50,203 nucleotides of DNA, taken from contig JABFWL010000285.1 in NCBI GenBank assembly GCA_013362315.1, positions 1 through 50,203 of the forward strand, in the 5' to 3' direction. This DNA is from Catenulispora sp. GTDB lineage: Bacteria; Actinomycetota; Actinomycetes; Streptomycetales; Catenulisporaceae. The translations under genes and the position numbers were made by a program. Below, piece by piece: positions 16,640 to 45,311 of this stretch (its first letter is position 1; every line of letters begins with the position of its first letter). The notes under the pieces were generated by a model, which made no database searches, was not told the origin of the DNA, and saw nothing but the letters and a program-made list of their open reading frames with translations.

Positions 16640-16680
16640 GGGGGTTCCTATTCACCGTGGCCATCCGGCCCGCCTAGCGT
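16640..16680 (+). promoter_or_regulatory. Cluster motif site 1 and promoter of the FolD-like gene
   Basis: GGGGGTTCCTATTCACC at 16640-16656 is nearly identical to sites at 34667 and 44795. TAGCGT (16675-16680) lies 35 bp after the first G of the motif and could be the -10 box. The same 35-bp step from GGGGGTT to TAGGCT occurs upstream of the dehydratase gene at 42712. I infer a binding site for a cluster activator. Confidence 0.55.
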
Positions 16681-16761
16681 GGGCGGCGTCAGCACGCGGT
16701 GCGGGTACCGCACTTCTGGCGGAAGGCTCGTGCACCGCTGGAGAACCGGGAGACCACGACC

Positions 16762-17703
16762 ATGACCGCTCAGCTCATAGATGGCAAAGACCTGCAGGGA
16801 CCGATCCTGGAGCGGGTCGGCGCGAAGATTCAGAAGACCGGGACCGCGCCGGTGTTGGACCTGGTGATGATCGACCATCCGGTCATGCCGATCCAGATGC
16901 AGACCGAGCCCGCCTTCGACCTGCACATCTCGTTCCTCAGGAAGCTCGGTGTGCAGGTCCGGCCGCACCGGCTCGCGGCCGACGTGCGGCACGACGACGT
17001 CGTCGCGCTGGTCGAGGGCTGCAACGCCGACGCGAGTTGCGACGGGGTCTTCATCCTCGTGCCGCCTCCGCCGCAGATCCGGCTGGTCGAGGTGCTCAAC
17101 GCCATCGACCCGGCCAAGGAGCTGGAGGGGCTGCATCCCGCGCACGCCGCGCATCTGCTGCCGGTCAGCCTGACGGCGACCGAGCGGCCGATGATCGTCC
17201 CGGCCACGTTGCGGACCGTCTTCGACGCGGTGGGGACGGACTTCGAGGGAGCGCACGTCGTGGTGGTCGTGGAGCACGGGGCGCTGCGCGCAAACCTGAT
17301 CACGCACATGGTGACCAAGTTCGGCAGCGGCCTGATCTGGCCGTCCGACACGACGGTGACCGTGGTGCACCATGAGCACCCGCGGGTCGAGGAGTACTGC
17401 CGCGACGCCGATGTGCTCGTCGCGGTGCTGCCGGGTGTGCCGCGGCTCGTCCGCGGGAGCTGGGTGAAGCCGGGCGCCACGGTCGTCGACTTCGCCGCGA
17501 CCGTGATCGGCGCCGAGCCGCATCCCAAGAACCCCGAGCGGATGATGCCGGTGTTCGCCGGCGGCGTCGACAACGACGAGGTGGCCGAGGTCGCCAAGGT
17601 GCTGTGCCCGGCACCGCGCGGCGTCGGTCCTGTCATGCTGGCGCTGCTGGCCGAGAACCTCCTCGACGCCGCCATCGCCCGGCGCGGCGCCGGCGGTGCC
17701 TGA
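16762..17703 (+). CDS. FolD-like protein with altered active site
   Basis: 313 residues with the overall plan of methylene-tetrahydrofolate dehydrogenase/cyclohydrolase. Conserved: an AIDPAKELEGLHP block (FolD: DPxKDVDGFHP), the Rossmann part VVVVVEHGALRANL, CRDADVLVAVLPGVPRLVRGSWVKPGATVVDFA and FAGGVDNDEV...GVGPVMLALLAENLLDAA. Altered: the stretch around residues 34-62 (VMIDHPVMPIQMQTEPAFDL...) lacks the YxxxK that carries the catalytic Lys, and VEHGALRANL replaces the usual GRSxIVGxP nucleotide loop. So it is a paralogue with changed or lost C1 chemistry. It starts after GGGAGACC and overlaps the acyltransferase gene by 3 bp (TGATG), which ties it to the cluster. Confidence 0.8.
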   Translation: MTAQLIDGKDLQGPILERVGAKIQKTGTAPVLDLVMIDHPVMPIQMQTEPAFDLHISFLRKLGVQVRPHRLAADVRHDDVVALVEGCNADASCDGVFILVPPPPQIRLVEVLNAIDPAKELEGLHPAHAAHLLPVSLTATERPMIVPATLRTVFDAVGTDFEGAHVVVVVEHGALRANLITHMVTKFGSGLIWPSDTTVTVVHHEHPRVEEYCRDADVLVAVLPGVPRLVRGSWVKPGATVVDFAATVIGAEPHPKNPERMMPVFAGGVDNDEVAEVAKVLCPAPRGVGPVMLALLAENLLDAAIARRGAGGA

Positions 17704-18647
17704 TGGAGGAAGGCACCCAGGCGGCGGAGAGTCCGGCAGTCGCCTGGATCTTCCCCGGCCAGGGCGCGCAACGTCCGGGCATGGGCCTGCCGTGGCGGGA
17801 TGATCCCTCGTGGTCCGTGGTGGATCAGATCTCTGAGATAGCCGGCCGCGACGTCGGTTCGCTGCTGCTCGACGCCGACGCCGACGCTCTCCGGGAAACC
17901 GATGTCGCCCAACTGGCCACGTTCGCGCTCGAGATGGTGATCGCCGACGCGCTGCGTATCGCACCAGGGGACGGCACACCGTCGCCCACCGCGTATGCCG
18001 GACACAGTCTCGGCGAATACTCAGCGCTGGCCGCGGCGGGGATCCTCTCGCTGACCGACGCCACACGCCTCGTCGTCGCGCGTGGCCGGGCGATGCTCGC
18101 GGCGACTCGGGAACGCAAAGGAACGATGGGCGTCCTGATCGGCCTGTCCGGTGCGGAGGCCGACCAGCTCGTCAAGGAGGTACAGCAGGCCGGCCACGAG
18201 GTCTGGGTGGCCAACCGGAACGCGGCCGACCAGTTCGTCGTCTCCGGAACCGAAGAGGGCGTCGACGCCGTCGCCGACGCGGTGGTGAAGCCGGGCCGCC
18301 TGGCCCGGATCCCGGTGGCCGGGGCCTTCCACACCCCGCTGATGGCACCCGCCGCGGCAGACCTGCGAGCCGCCCTGGTGCGGACGCCGTTCCAGCCCGG
18401 CCGGGCGGTGGTCGTCGCCAACGTCGACGCGCAGCCGCACGACGGCTCGGCGGACTGGCCCGGGCTCGCGACCGCCCAGCTCACCAGCCCGGTGCTCTGG
18501 GCCGACAGCGTGGACGTCCTGATCGGCGAGCTCGGATGCGGTTCCGTTCTGGAGATCGGGCCGGGCAAGGCACTCACCAACCTCGTCAAGCGCTCCGGCT
18601 GGACCGTCACCGTCCGGTCGGTTTCCACGCCGGACGCCATGAGCTGA
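17703..18647 (+). CDS. Free-standing (trans-acting) malonyl acyltransferase, FabD-like
   Basis: 314 residues of the acyl-CoA:ACP transacylase fold: FPGQGAQRPGMG, nucleophile Ser102 in GHSLGEYSAL, the carboxylate-binding Arg in VVARGRAM, and His210 in GAFHTPLM. GAFHT at the specificity site fits malonyl rather than methylmalonyl. It most likely loads the type II ACP and the carrier domain of the KS-T-TE protein, which has no AT. It overlaps the FolD-like gene by 3 bp and ends before a strong bidirectional terminator. Confidence 0.88.
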   Translation: MEEGTQAAESPAVAWIFPGQGAQRPGMGLPWRDDPSWSVVDQISEIAGRDVGSLLLDADADALRETDVAQLATFALEMVIADALRIAPGDGTPSPTAYAGHSLGEYSALAAAGILSLTDATRLVVARGRAMLAATRERKGTMGVLIGLSGAEADQLVKEVQQAGHEVWVANRNAADQFVVSGTEEGVDAVADAVVKPGRLARIPVAGAFHTPLMAPAAADLRAALVRTPFQPGRAVVVANVDAQPHDGSADWPGLATAQLTSPVLWADSVDVLIGELGCGSVLEIGPGKALTNLVKRSGWTVTVRSVSTPDAMS

Positions 18648-18648
18648 C

Positions 18649-43697: not shown

Positions 43698-43738
43698 CTG
43701 GCGTCAGAGCCCGCCCGCAGTCGGGTGCGACGCCAAGC

Positions 43739-43768
43739 GGGGGACGGGGCCGGCTGGCCCCGTCCCCC
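43739..43768. terminator. Bidirectional hairpin terminator
   Basis: A perfect 13-bp stem GGGGGACGGGGCC/GGCCCCGTCCCCC with a GGCT loop lies between the convergent HXXEE and oxidoreductase genes. It marks the 3' end of the DH2-HXXEE transcript. Confidence 0.85.
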
Positions 43769-43809
43769 TCCTGTGCTCCGCTGTCAGGGATCTTCTGCGC
43801 TACATACTG

Positions 43810-44730
43810 TCAGGGATGCAGGACGATCTTCCCGTGCGTGTGCCGCTTCTCGACCTCGCGGTAGGCCTCGCGCACCTCCGCCAGCGGGAACGCCGCGGCG
43901 ATCGGGACCTCCAGCTCGCCGGCGTCGACCAGGGCCGCGAGTTCGGCCAGTACCGAAGCCTGTGCGGCGGCGGCGTTCCCCTCGAACTTCACGCCGTACT
44001 TCCCGACCGCGCCGAAGTCGACGATCGTGTCGATGCGCTGCGGCGCGACGCCCAGTTCCAGCGCCATCTCGACATACCCGTTGCCGAACGCGTCGATGAA
44101 CGCGTCGACCGTCCCGCCGCAGGCCTCCTGGATCCGCTCGGCGACCCCGGGACCGTACTCGACGGCCGTCACGCCATGACTGGCCAGCCAGTCGTGGTTG
44201 GCCTTGCTCGCCAGCCCGATCACGCGTGCCCCGGTGCGCCGTGCCAGCTGGACCGTGATGGAGCCGACCCCGCCCGCCGCGCCCGCGACCACGACCGCGT
44301 CGCCGGGACCCGGCGCCACGGCACGCACCGCCGCATAGGCCGTCGTACCGGCGACGTAGAGGCTCCCGGCGACATCCCACGGAACGCCGTCCGGCTTGCG
44401 GACAAGGTTGCCCGCCTCGACGATCACATACTCCGCGTGGCTGGCGCGCCGGTCGGTGAACCCGATGACCTCCTCACCCACGCTCCACCCGGACACTCCG
44501 TCGCCCAGCTCGGCCACGAGGCCGGTCAGGTCACTGCCCTGGCCACAGGGGAACGTCGCGGGGAAGATGGCATGCGCGACCCCCGTGCGGATCACCGCCT
44601 CCCCCGGATTGATCGCCGCGGCGACCACCTGCACCAGCACCTCTCCGGCCCCGGGCACCGGACGCGGCACCTCGACGACGTTCAGAACGTCGACGTCGCC
44701 GTACTCCTCGAATCGGACAGCCAACGGCAT
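43810..44730 (-). CDS. Zinc-free NADPH:quinone oxidoreductase-like (medium-chain dehydrogenase)
   Basis: 306 residues. GroES-like N-terminus (PGAGEVLVQVVAAAINPGE, GQGSDLTGLV), nucleotide loop AGAAGGVGSITVQLA and C-terminal FPLAEVREAYREVEKRHTHGKIVL. The catalytic and structural zinc Cys residues are missing, so it belongs with quinone/enone oxidoreductases. Members reduce activated double bonds, so it could serve as an enoyl reductase or tailor the product. ATG 44730 has GAGGAG upstream. Upstream lies cluster motif site 3, which makes it a plausible right-hand member. Confidence 0.82.
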   Translation of the reverse strand: MPLAVRFEEYGDVDVLNVVEVPRPVPGAGEVLVQVVAAAINPGEAVIRTGVAHAIFPATFPCGQGSDLTGLVAELGDGVSGWSVGEEVIGFTDRRASHAEYVIVEAGNLVRKPDGVPWDVAGSLYVAGTTAYAAVRAVAPGPGDAVVVAGAAGGVGSITVQLARRTGARVIGLASKANHDWLASHGVTAVEYGPGVAERIQEACGGTVDAFIDAFGNGYVEMALELGVAPQRIDTIVDFGAVGKYGVKFEGNAAAAQASVLAELAALVDAGELEVPIAAAFPLAEVREAYREVEKRHTHGKIVLHP

Positions 44731-45311
44731 GACCACTCCTCACTCGTCGTCTCAATACCGTAACGACGCAGGGGTCTCCGGATCACGTCCGGATGGGGGT
44801 TCGTACTCACCCCTGCCGGGCGCGCGGCACGGAGTGCGGGCCGCCGGGCTGTCGCTCGACGACCAGCGATGGCCGCGGCCCGGGCGACCTTCCGCATCCT
44901 GACGGCAGTGGGATGGTCGAAGCGCTTCGACTATACGGGGTGCAGCTCGCGCTTTTCTGATCGATAGCAAGAGCCGTGTAAATCTGGCTACAGAGCATTG
45001 ACGCTCGTTAAACCCAGCCGTAACATCCGATCGAGCCCTTCGCGGAAGCGCTTCGACGCCTACCCCACCGGCATCCGCGAAAGGGCGCACAGGGATCCGG
45101 CAGCCCCATTACCGGCTCGCTCAGGACACACCTGCCGCAAGCCAGCCGACCGCCTCGCCGCTGACGTTCCACACCGCCAAGAGCCGCCCACTCTCAACGG
45201 CTTCGGCGTTGGTGCAGCTCGTTTCGCAGGTCTCGCGTGACCTCAATCGGCGATGGCCCCTTGGCTGATCCACCTCGCGCCGGGCCGTCCGGAGTCAAAC
45301 AAAAGGAGTGG
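44731..45311. promoter_or_regulatory. Intergenic region: cluster motif site 3, two LacI-like palindromes, esterase promoter
   Basis: No gene is seen in these 580 bp. GGGGGTTCGTACTCACC (44795-44811) matches cluster sites 1 and 2. GTCGAAGCGCTTCGAC (44916-44931) is a perfect 16-bp palindrome, and its core GAAGCGCTTC recurs at 45044-45053. TTGACG (44998-45003) and TAACAT (45021-45026), 17 bp apart, form a sigma-70-like promoter; the second palindrome would cover about +11 to +20. This is a typical place for a LacI-family sugar repressor. The leader to ATG 45312 would be about 280 nt. Confidence 0.65.

Follow-up and report, generated by a model that had tools for sequence, protein, structure and literature searches.

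A Catenulispora gene cluster predicted to make an N-polyenoyl tetramic acid and an aromatic partner

The described systems closest to the locus analysed here are the tetramate synthases of the muc and rtc clusters (mutanocyclin and the antibiotic reutericyclin; Streptococcus mutans and Limosilactobacillus reuteri) and the type II polyketide synthases (PKSs) that make polyenes. In the sections of PMC10161427 on which we draw, MucD is a C-A-PCP protein and MucE a KS-ACP-TE protein that closes the ring by lactam formation and whose assay included an external malonyl transferase; the same sections give rtc as lacking mucF and report muc-like clusters mostly from human-associated bacteria. MucF is an HXXEE acylase in sections of PMC9112991 and PMC8757879. 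We describe a region of Catenulispora sp. (GenBank assembly GCA_013362315.1, contig JABFWL010000285.1, our contig C65) in which genes of both kinds lie together with genes for the supply of 4-hydroxyphenylglycine (Hpg), spanning 16.7-43.7 kb of the window, by which we mean the whole 50,203-base stretch that was analysed (70.6% GC, from a genome of 7.97 Mb that is 81.6% complete).

Polyene type II PKS clusters (ishigamide, colabomycin, simocyclinone, skyllamycin, WS9326A, kitacinnamycin and youssoufene) share with the window a ketosynthase (KS)/chain length factor (CLF) pair, an acyl carrier protein (ACP), a ketoreductase (KR) and dehydratases, to which the cinnamoyl kind adds an isomerase and a nonribosomal peptide synthetase (NRPS). 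Part of PMC6510318 describes polyene type II PKSs that are accompanied by isomerase and NRPS genes and counts 51 such putative clusters, and part of PMC9381841 gives cinnamoyl-type clusters two or three KS/CLF pairs and terms the youssoufene isomerase, YsfG, a glutathione-dependent cis-trans isomerase. The window, in contrast to the cinnamoyl-type clusters (skyllamycin, kitacinnamycin, youssoufene), carries its isomerase gene, recognised by family, with the single KS/CLF pair found on the contig, and it differs from the clusters of cinnamoyl-containing nonribosomal peptides in having one C-A-T module and a KS-T-TE protein with no multimodular NRPS. A polyene joined to a tetramic acid is also seen in epifadin, a peptide-polyene-tetramic acid of Staphylococcus epidermidis; there, however, the passages of PMC11310079 that we cite derive the polyene from trans-AT PKS modules and the tetramate from Asp, through a terminal NRPS that bears a CT domain.

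We lean towards reading the region as a single cluster that makes an N-polyenoyl tetramic acid and provides it with an aromatic, Hpg-derived partner. A C-A-T NRPS, a KS-T-TE protein without AT and an HXXEE protein together have the architecture of MucD, MucE and MucF, and on this basis we predict an N-polyenoyl tetramic acid formed by muc-type chemistry with a polyene as its acyl group. The likeness, which extends to an MFS transporter and a TetR regulator, is one of architecture only; muc and rtc use a decenoyl chain whereas the window has a built-in polyene PKS, and it adds FolD, MMPL, FabD-like AT and Hpg genes. By analogy with muc, lactam formation is a more likely mode of ring closure than Dieckmann cyclisation. 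The preliminary description of this DNA, made from its letters, had proposed that a polyenoyl-amino acid takes on one malonate and is released by the TE, perhaps as a tetramic acid or a pyrone-like ring; the tetramic acid route is also what the muc precedent would predict. If this is right, a tetramate synthase of the reutericyclin type can receive its acyl chain from a polyene type II PKS, and does so outside human-associated bacteria. Among the matches listed from the open-licence literature we found no description in which a polyene type II PKS is combined with a tetramate synthase or with the Hpg module seen here, which is no proof of absence. The combination of polyene PKS, tetramate synthase and aromatic genes was likewise not found in the other genomes searched and is likely to be new, and no close match to a characterised cluster was seen in the literature and genome searches. 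The genes are as follows.

16759-17703, plus strand: divergent FolD-like protein (tetrahydrofolate dehydrogenase/cyclohydrolase fold; PF02882/PF00763)
17703-18647, plus strand: FabD-like malonyl transferase, likely the trans AT for KS-T-TE and perhaps also for the ACP (PF00698, 105 bits; TIGR00128, 199 bits, under cut-off)
18714-19238, minus strand: HXXEE membrane protein 1, a MucF-like acylase candidate (PF13787, 64 bits)
19235-22186, minus strand: KS-T-TE protein without AT, MucE-like in architecture (PF00109/PF02801/PF00550/PF00975, no PF00698)
22183-25413, minus strand: C-A-T NRPS, MucD-like in architecture (PF00668/PF00501/PF00550)
25410-27596, minus strand: MMPL family exporter (PF03176, 373 bits)
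27667-28539, minus strand: serine-recombinase-like protein without catalytic domain (PF07508 and PF13408 only)
28577-30175, minus strand: MFS transporter (PF07690, 162 bits)
30334-31152, minus strand: DSBA-fold protein, likely a glutathione-dependent cis-trans isomerase of the polyene (PF01323, 72 bits)
31149-32285, minus strand: CLF of the polyene type II PKS (PDB match scores, tree)
32282-33490, minus strand: KS of the polyene type II PKS (PF00109/PF02801)
33493-33750, minus strand: ACP (PF00550)
33844-34596, minus strand: FabG-like KR (PF13561; TIGR01830, 285 bits, just under the cut-off of 298)
34801-35373, plus strand: FabZ-like dehydratase 1, DH1 (PF07977; fabZ model, 81 bits, under cut-off)
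35385-35696, plus strand: 103-aa protein of no recognised family (no Pfam or NCBIfam match; single-sequence structure model at a mean pLDDT of 42)
35686-37170, plus strand: pyridoxal phosphate (PLP) enzyme of the aromatic-amino-acid-decarboxylase type, with Phe replacing the catalytic-loop Tyr (PF00282, 285 bits)
37167-37523, plus strand: Dabb (A/B barrel) protein (PF07876, 45 bits)
37526-38440, plus strand: PhyH-type oxygenase (PF05721, 80 bits; best PDB match SnoK)
38437-39534, plus strand: 4-hydroxymandelate synthase (HmaS)-like protein (best PDB match 2r5v)
39531-40892, plus strand: 4-hydroxyphenylglycine aminotransferase (HpgT)-like protein (Aminotran_1_2)
40906-41991, plus strand: prephenate dehydrogenase, Pdh (PF02153; NF005109, 412 bits, above cut-off)
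42038-42625, plus strand: TetR regulator (PF00440, PF16859)
42670-43080, plus strand: FabZ-like dehydratase 2, DH2 (PF07977, 31 bits; fabZ model, 52 bits, under cut-off)
43077-43697, plus strand: HXXEE membrane protein 2 (PF13787, 35 bits)
43810-44736, minus strand: MDR-type quinone/enoyl reductase-like protein, doubtful as a cluster member (TIGR02824, 111 bits, under cut-off)

Pfam and NCBIfam scans served to assign the gene classes, with the window's genes scanned from 12.6 kb rightward. A crude GC-frame picker chose 17 of these 25 genes; the eight that it missed (AT, HXXEE1, DSBA, KS, Dabb, HmaS, HpgT and HXXEE2) are based on family matches. All the classes named in the preliminary description (KS, CLF, ACP, KR, two dehydratases, NRPS, KS-T-TE, AT, PLP enzyme, PhyH, HmaS- and HpgT-like proteins and Pdh) were found again, along with genes that it had overlooked: the DSBA-fold, MMPL, MFS, Dabb, 103-aa and recombinase-like genes, the two HXXEE genes and the divergent FolD. 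The minus strand is ordered KR, ACP, KS, CLF, DSBA-fold, MFS, recombinase-like, MMPL, NRPS, KS-T-TE and HXXEE1, and the plus strand has the FolD-like and FabD-like AT genes and, from 34.8 kb, dehydratase 1, 103-aa, PLP, Dabb, PhyH, HmaS-like, HpgT-like, Pdh-like, TetR, dehydratase 2 and HXXEE2.

The assignment of the PKS to the polyene type rests on both PDB scores and phylogeny. The CLF scored 165 bits against chain B of 6kxd, which we take to be the ishigamide Iga11-Iga12 pair, compared with 90 bits against the 3-oxoacyl synthase 9s5h and 37 bits against the actinorhodin CLF (1tqy). The best match to 6kxd chain B bears out the earlier proposal of a polyene type II PKS beside a one-module NRPS and a KS-T-TE protein, and an aromatic type II PKS was ruled down by the difference between the 165-bit and 37-bit scores. 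A scan of a genome collection with an alignment of 11 CLFs gave 333 relatives, of which the best 80 were analysed with flanks of at most 10 kb; 12 of these 80 loci were shorter than 20 kb, so distant genes are outside the view. In a tree of the window CLF and those from 75 of the 80 loci (matches of at most 300 residues being dropped), the window CLF formed a long branch within a 41-row group (support 95/92) with no better resolved sister, and KS and CLF thus group, by PDB scores and the CLF tree, with polyene rather than aromatic systems. A KS 57-79% identical to that of the window was present in 75 of the 80 loci, and an AT match in six. Residue C143 of the window CLF lies in an N-C-x-x-G-Q motif at the site of the KS active-site Cys (judged by eye), and is invariant in the 11 aligned CLFs. 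As expected for a polyene system, and as had been stated before, ACP, KR and dehydratase genes are present and the family scans revealed no dedicated enoyl reductase, although the MDR-type gene at 43810-44736 leaves some doubt on this point.

The two solved structures nearest to the DSBA-fold protein are 2-hydroxychromene-2-carboxylate isomerases, the best PDB match being 3fz5 (a 'possible' such isomerase), and a homologue was found within the fetched flanks of 64 of the 80 CLF loci.

We then consider the tetramate synthase half. Relatives of the T-TE part were found at E<=1e-40 in four of 292 other genomes of the order, and at E<=1e-35 in none of 393 other genomes of the class (own genome only; this sample overlaps that of the order). 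These searches scored few candidates per genome (six for the order search and for the FolD search below, four for the class search), and KS-rich genomes may hide relatives. In a plasmid collection no match at E<=1e-100 extended over 80% of KS-T-TE, and the 15 NRPS matches listed from it were just 30-32% identical. The four order-level genomes (G671, G650, G614 and G131) encode KS-T-TE relatives that are near full length and 44-45% identical. In G671, G614 and G131 an AT follows directly behind the TE in the same frame (open frames of 1252, 1362 and 1326 aa), so that AT is probably fused to KS-T-TE in these genomes; this arrangement supports malonyl loading of KS-T-TE. The place of the AT, C-terminal to the TE (L130-L131 in G671; L135-L136 and L137-L139 in G614 and G131), is unusual. 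The separate FabD-like AT of the window has GHSLG and GAFH motifs, as read by eye.

The FolD-like protein links the window to the fourth genome. A housekeeping identity for 16759-17703 was rejected, as the genome has two better, ordinary FolD copies (201 and 200 bits, compared with 85 bits), and among 371 other genomes of the order only G650 gave a match at E<=1e-25. In G650 (L132-L134, contig C12) genes for a FolD-like protein (38% identity), KS-T-TE (45%) and a C-A-T NRPS (38% over 1058 aligned positions) adjoin one another, with an HXXEE gene about 6 kb further on (31% to HXXEE1 and 26% to HXXEE2) and no CLF. A motif scan for HXXEE picked up a candidate in G650; it gave nothing in the ranges fetched from G671, G614, G131 and G047. 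FolD, KS-T-TE, NRPS and HXXEE therefore co-occur without this polyene PKS, and the G650 region is a candidate muc-like cluster in a genome taken as Streptomyces. It also carries a Lys/Orn monooxygenase gene (by family match) and genes that by eye are LuxR-, PEP-utilising- and acyl-ligase-like.

A number of observations weigh against one cluster making a tetramic acid, and the first concern the chemistry. The active residues of the TE, KS and C domains were judged by eye. The window FolD gene lies on the strand opposite to KS-T-TE, whereas in G650 the two share a strand; no AT was seen in the G650 region, which also has a stand-alone KS (37%), a KR (45%) and an ACP-like gene. KS-T-TE could hydrolyse its product or form a pyrone. 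The compound would then be a linear polyenoyl amide or a pyrone, and it is in favour of such an outcome that TE domains can hydrolyse, that no counterpart of MucABC (C-3 acetylation) was seen among the Pfam matches of the scanned region's proteins, and that a Dabb-type protein could, from general knowledge, cyclise a polyketide. The described pair of C-A-T and KS-T-TE proteins with an HXXEE partner does, however, make a tetramic acid, and the window has two PF13787 genes, putatively for acylases; we regard a linear or pyrone product as rather unlikely.

The remaining contrary observations concern whether the halves belong together, and the alternative here is that a polyene type II PKS cluster abuts a separate tetramate/Hpg cluster. 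No full-length KS-T-TE was present in the fetched flanks of any of the 80 best CLF loci, where the best match never covered more than 40% of the query, and none of these loci gave a match to the PLP, Dabb, PhyH, Pdh or 103-aa proteins; an HmaS-like match (40%) was seen in one (L105) and a weak HpgT match in another (L091). Conversely, no CLF was found in the KS-T-TE regions of G671, G650, G614 and G131, where nothing but the stand-alone KS of G650 showed similarity (24%). At least two KS matches (matches, not proven pairs) occur in 58 of the 64 isomerase-bearing CLF loci, compared with the one KS/CLF pair of the window. In addition a palindrome with a 14-pair stem (30330-30299), terminator-like or operator-like, lies between the DSBA and MFS genes, so that the minus strand may be two operons. 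Thus the halves do occur apart, a finding that the preliminary description had named as contrary to its proposal.

Set against this, the parts are closely joined in the window. With the start codons chosen, an overlap of exactly 4 bases is found at nine junctions (MMPL/NRPS, NRPS/KS-T-TE, KS-T-TE/HXXEE1, KS/CLF, CLF/DSBA, PLP/Dabb, PhyH/HmaS, HmaS/HpgT and DH2/HXXEE2), and DH1, the Hpg genes and DH2 form a colinear run in which gaps measure 11 to about 80 bases, so that the two dehydratases needed by the polyene PKS flank the plus-strand Hpg genes on both sides. The recombinase-like gene, a companion of the polyene PKS in eight of the 80 loci (L037, L038, L039, L040, L042, L043, L047 and L102), sits within the NRPS run. 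The region showed no other source of an acyl group for the NRPS; a fatty acyl chain from the cell could, however, serve a muc-type enzyme. Because the gene overlaps and colinearity join the parts here, we read their separate occurrence elsewhere as modular assembly, and conclude that the polyene PKS, the NRPS/KS-T-TE pair and the Hpg genes are more likely one cluster; two abutting clusters appear unlikely. The recombinase-like proteins of the window and of the eight loci have PF07508 and a zinc ribbon, and no resolvase catalytic domain was found in the stretches scanned (the whole frame in six of the eight; part of it in L047 and L102); the protein is perhaps a domesticated DNA-binding regulator.

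Turning to the aromatic genes, the HmaS-like protein scored 343 bits against 2r5v (PCZA361.1), which we take to be HmaS, 294 and 249 bits against 7yvv and 3zgj, both named 4-hydroxyphenylpyruvate dioxygenase (HPPD), and 186 bits against the HPPD 1t47. NCBIfam names it 4HPPD (334 bits, cut-off 277), and the gene context favours HmaS over HPPD. A homogentisate reading of this gene, prompted by an FAA-hydrolase gene at 48892-50157, was ruled down, if not fully. The HpgT-like protein is 53% identical to an HpgT-like protein encoded beside an Hmo candidate on contig C567 of the same genome; no family model names it HpgT, and the name given to 39531-40892 is our assumption from motifs and context. 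A genome search found no match to FMN_dh, the Hmo family, on the window's contig, and three full-length FMN_dh genes on C298, C567 and C326. The C567 protein scored 348 bits against lactate oxidase and 300 bits against Hmo in the PDB, so Hmo is not singled out, and the C298 copy is less Hmo-like. The C567 locus (L140, G000:C567, 1-14505) is a second cluster in this genome, with a KS and HmaS-, PhyH-, Hmo- and HpgT-like genes as well as E1-like genes and an ACP recognised by eye. PhyH-HmaS neighbourhoods like that of C567 were seen in G003, G012 and several genomes taken as Streptomyces.

Of 371 other genomes of the order, 30 have PhyH relatives (E<=1e-25), among them all nine genus mates. Twelve stretches were fetched from 11 of these 30, and in each of the 12 an HmaS-like gene lies no more than 3 kb from PhyH, directly adjoining it in 10. 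It can be seen in G047 (L174-L178 and L162, contig C1) that the order 103-aa, PLP, Dabb, PhyH, HmaS, Hmo, HpgT is that of the window, except that the window lacks Hmo; identities are 68% (103-aa), 67% (PLP), 49% (Dabb), 74% (PhyH), 51% (HmaS) and 62% (HpgT), and the G047 genes lie beside NRPS genes and a KS-T-reductase gene, an NRPS/PKS unrelated to that of the window. Since the six genes have the same order in G047, they form, judged from gene order, a conserved building-block module, in its full form in this one other genome. Compared with the glycopeptide-type supply of Hpg (HmaS, Hmo, HpgT and Pdh), the window shares HmaS-, HpgT- and Pdh-like genes and lacks Hmo, and has instead, as in G047, the PhyH, Phe-type PLP, Dabb and 103-aa genes.

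A variant of the tetramic acid proposal, compatible with it, is that the A domain itself loads Hpg, giving a 5-(4-hydroxyphenyl) tetramic acid or its open-chain form. The presence of HmaS-, HpgT- and Pdh-like genes colinear with both dehydratases is consistent with this. The A-domain code, however, reads DMWTLLQMF, which is unlike the Hpg codes known to us; none of the codes of related NRPSs matched it. Moreover, in G047 the Hpg genes are likewise accompanied by those for PLP and PhyH, and the five A-domain matches of that genome differ in code; this points to further processing of Hpg. We consider Hpg loading fairly unlikely. The Hpg-derived part of the product proposed earlier stands as far as the genes are present, but they are a recurring module and their product need not be the NRPS substrate.

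The PLP enzyme may take part in this further processing, and here too the earlier assignment needs qualifying: the protein belongs to the aromatic decarboxylase family, as had been stated, but may not be a plain decarboxylase. Its best relatives among the matches listed from 396 genomes of the phylum are 43-46% identical. The catalytic-loop Tyr is Phe in the window and G047 and Tyr in all six readable decarboxylase-like relatives (a seventh, L117, was mis-called and dropped). A single Tyr/Phe change turns decarboxylases into aldehyde synthases, as stated in part of PMC11308512, and the enzyme may on this residue make an aromatic aldehyde. On the other side, 7xin, which is the nearest enzyme of solved structure and bears the name DOPA decarboxylase, aligns a Leu at the loop-Tyr position, so loss of the Tyr is by itself no proof of an aldehyde synthase; the window enzyme also departs from its relatives in the residues by the PLP lysine, which likewise weighs against the reading. 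If the reading is right, this is a bacterial sub-cluster with a decarboxylase carrying the Tyr-to-Phe switch known from plant aldehyde synthases. As a more speculative extension, and in our view a very unlikely one, the Phe-type PLP enzyme of the Hpg sub-cluster would couple decarboxylation to oxidative deamination and so give 4-hydroxybenzaldehyde or another aryl aldehyde of this kind, and this aldehyde would be condensed, with the help of Dabb and the 103-aa protein, onto the nucleophilic C-3 of the N-polyenoyl tetramate to yield a 3-arylidene N-polyenoyl tetramate. Were that true, the three-part scaffold would draw on a polyene PKS of type II, a ring former of the MucD/MucE type and an aromatic aldehyde synthase of bacterial origin.

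The pathway that we propose for the N-polyenoyl tetramic acid and its partner follows family precedent in its first four steps. KS/CLF, ACP, KR and the two dehydratases would make a conjugated polyenoyl-ACP, one double bond of which would be isomerised by the DSBA-fold protein, as suggested by YsfG. The C domain of the NRPS would then transfer the polyene to the amino acid loaded by A-T. In the third step the FabD-like AT would load malonate onto the T domain of KS-T-TE, the KS would add two carbons to the acyl-amino acid, and the ring would be closed by lactam formation, as in MucE. One or both HXXEE proteins would act as MucF-like acylases in self-protection or maturation, and MMPL and MFS would export the product. 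In a separate fifth step Pdh, HmaS, an Hmo from elsewhere (the C567 candidate) and HpgT would supply Hpg; beyond Hpg we can only guess that the Phe-type PLP enzyme and PhyH might convert it, or tyrosine, to a further aromatic unit.

The region is bounded by genes of other kinds, with Pfam matches on the left flank to urease alpha and a CobW/UreG-domain protein and on the right flank to a GDSL-lipase and a cellulase-type protein with ricin-type lectin domains.

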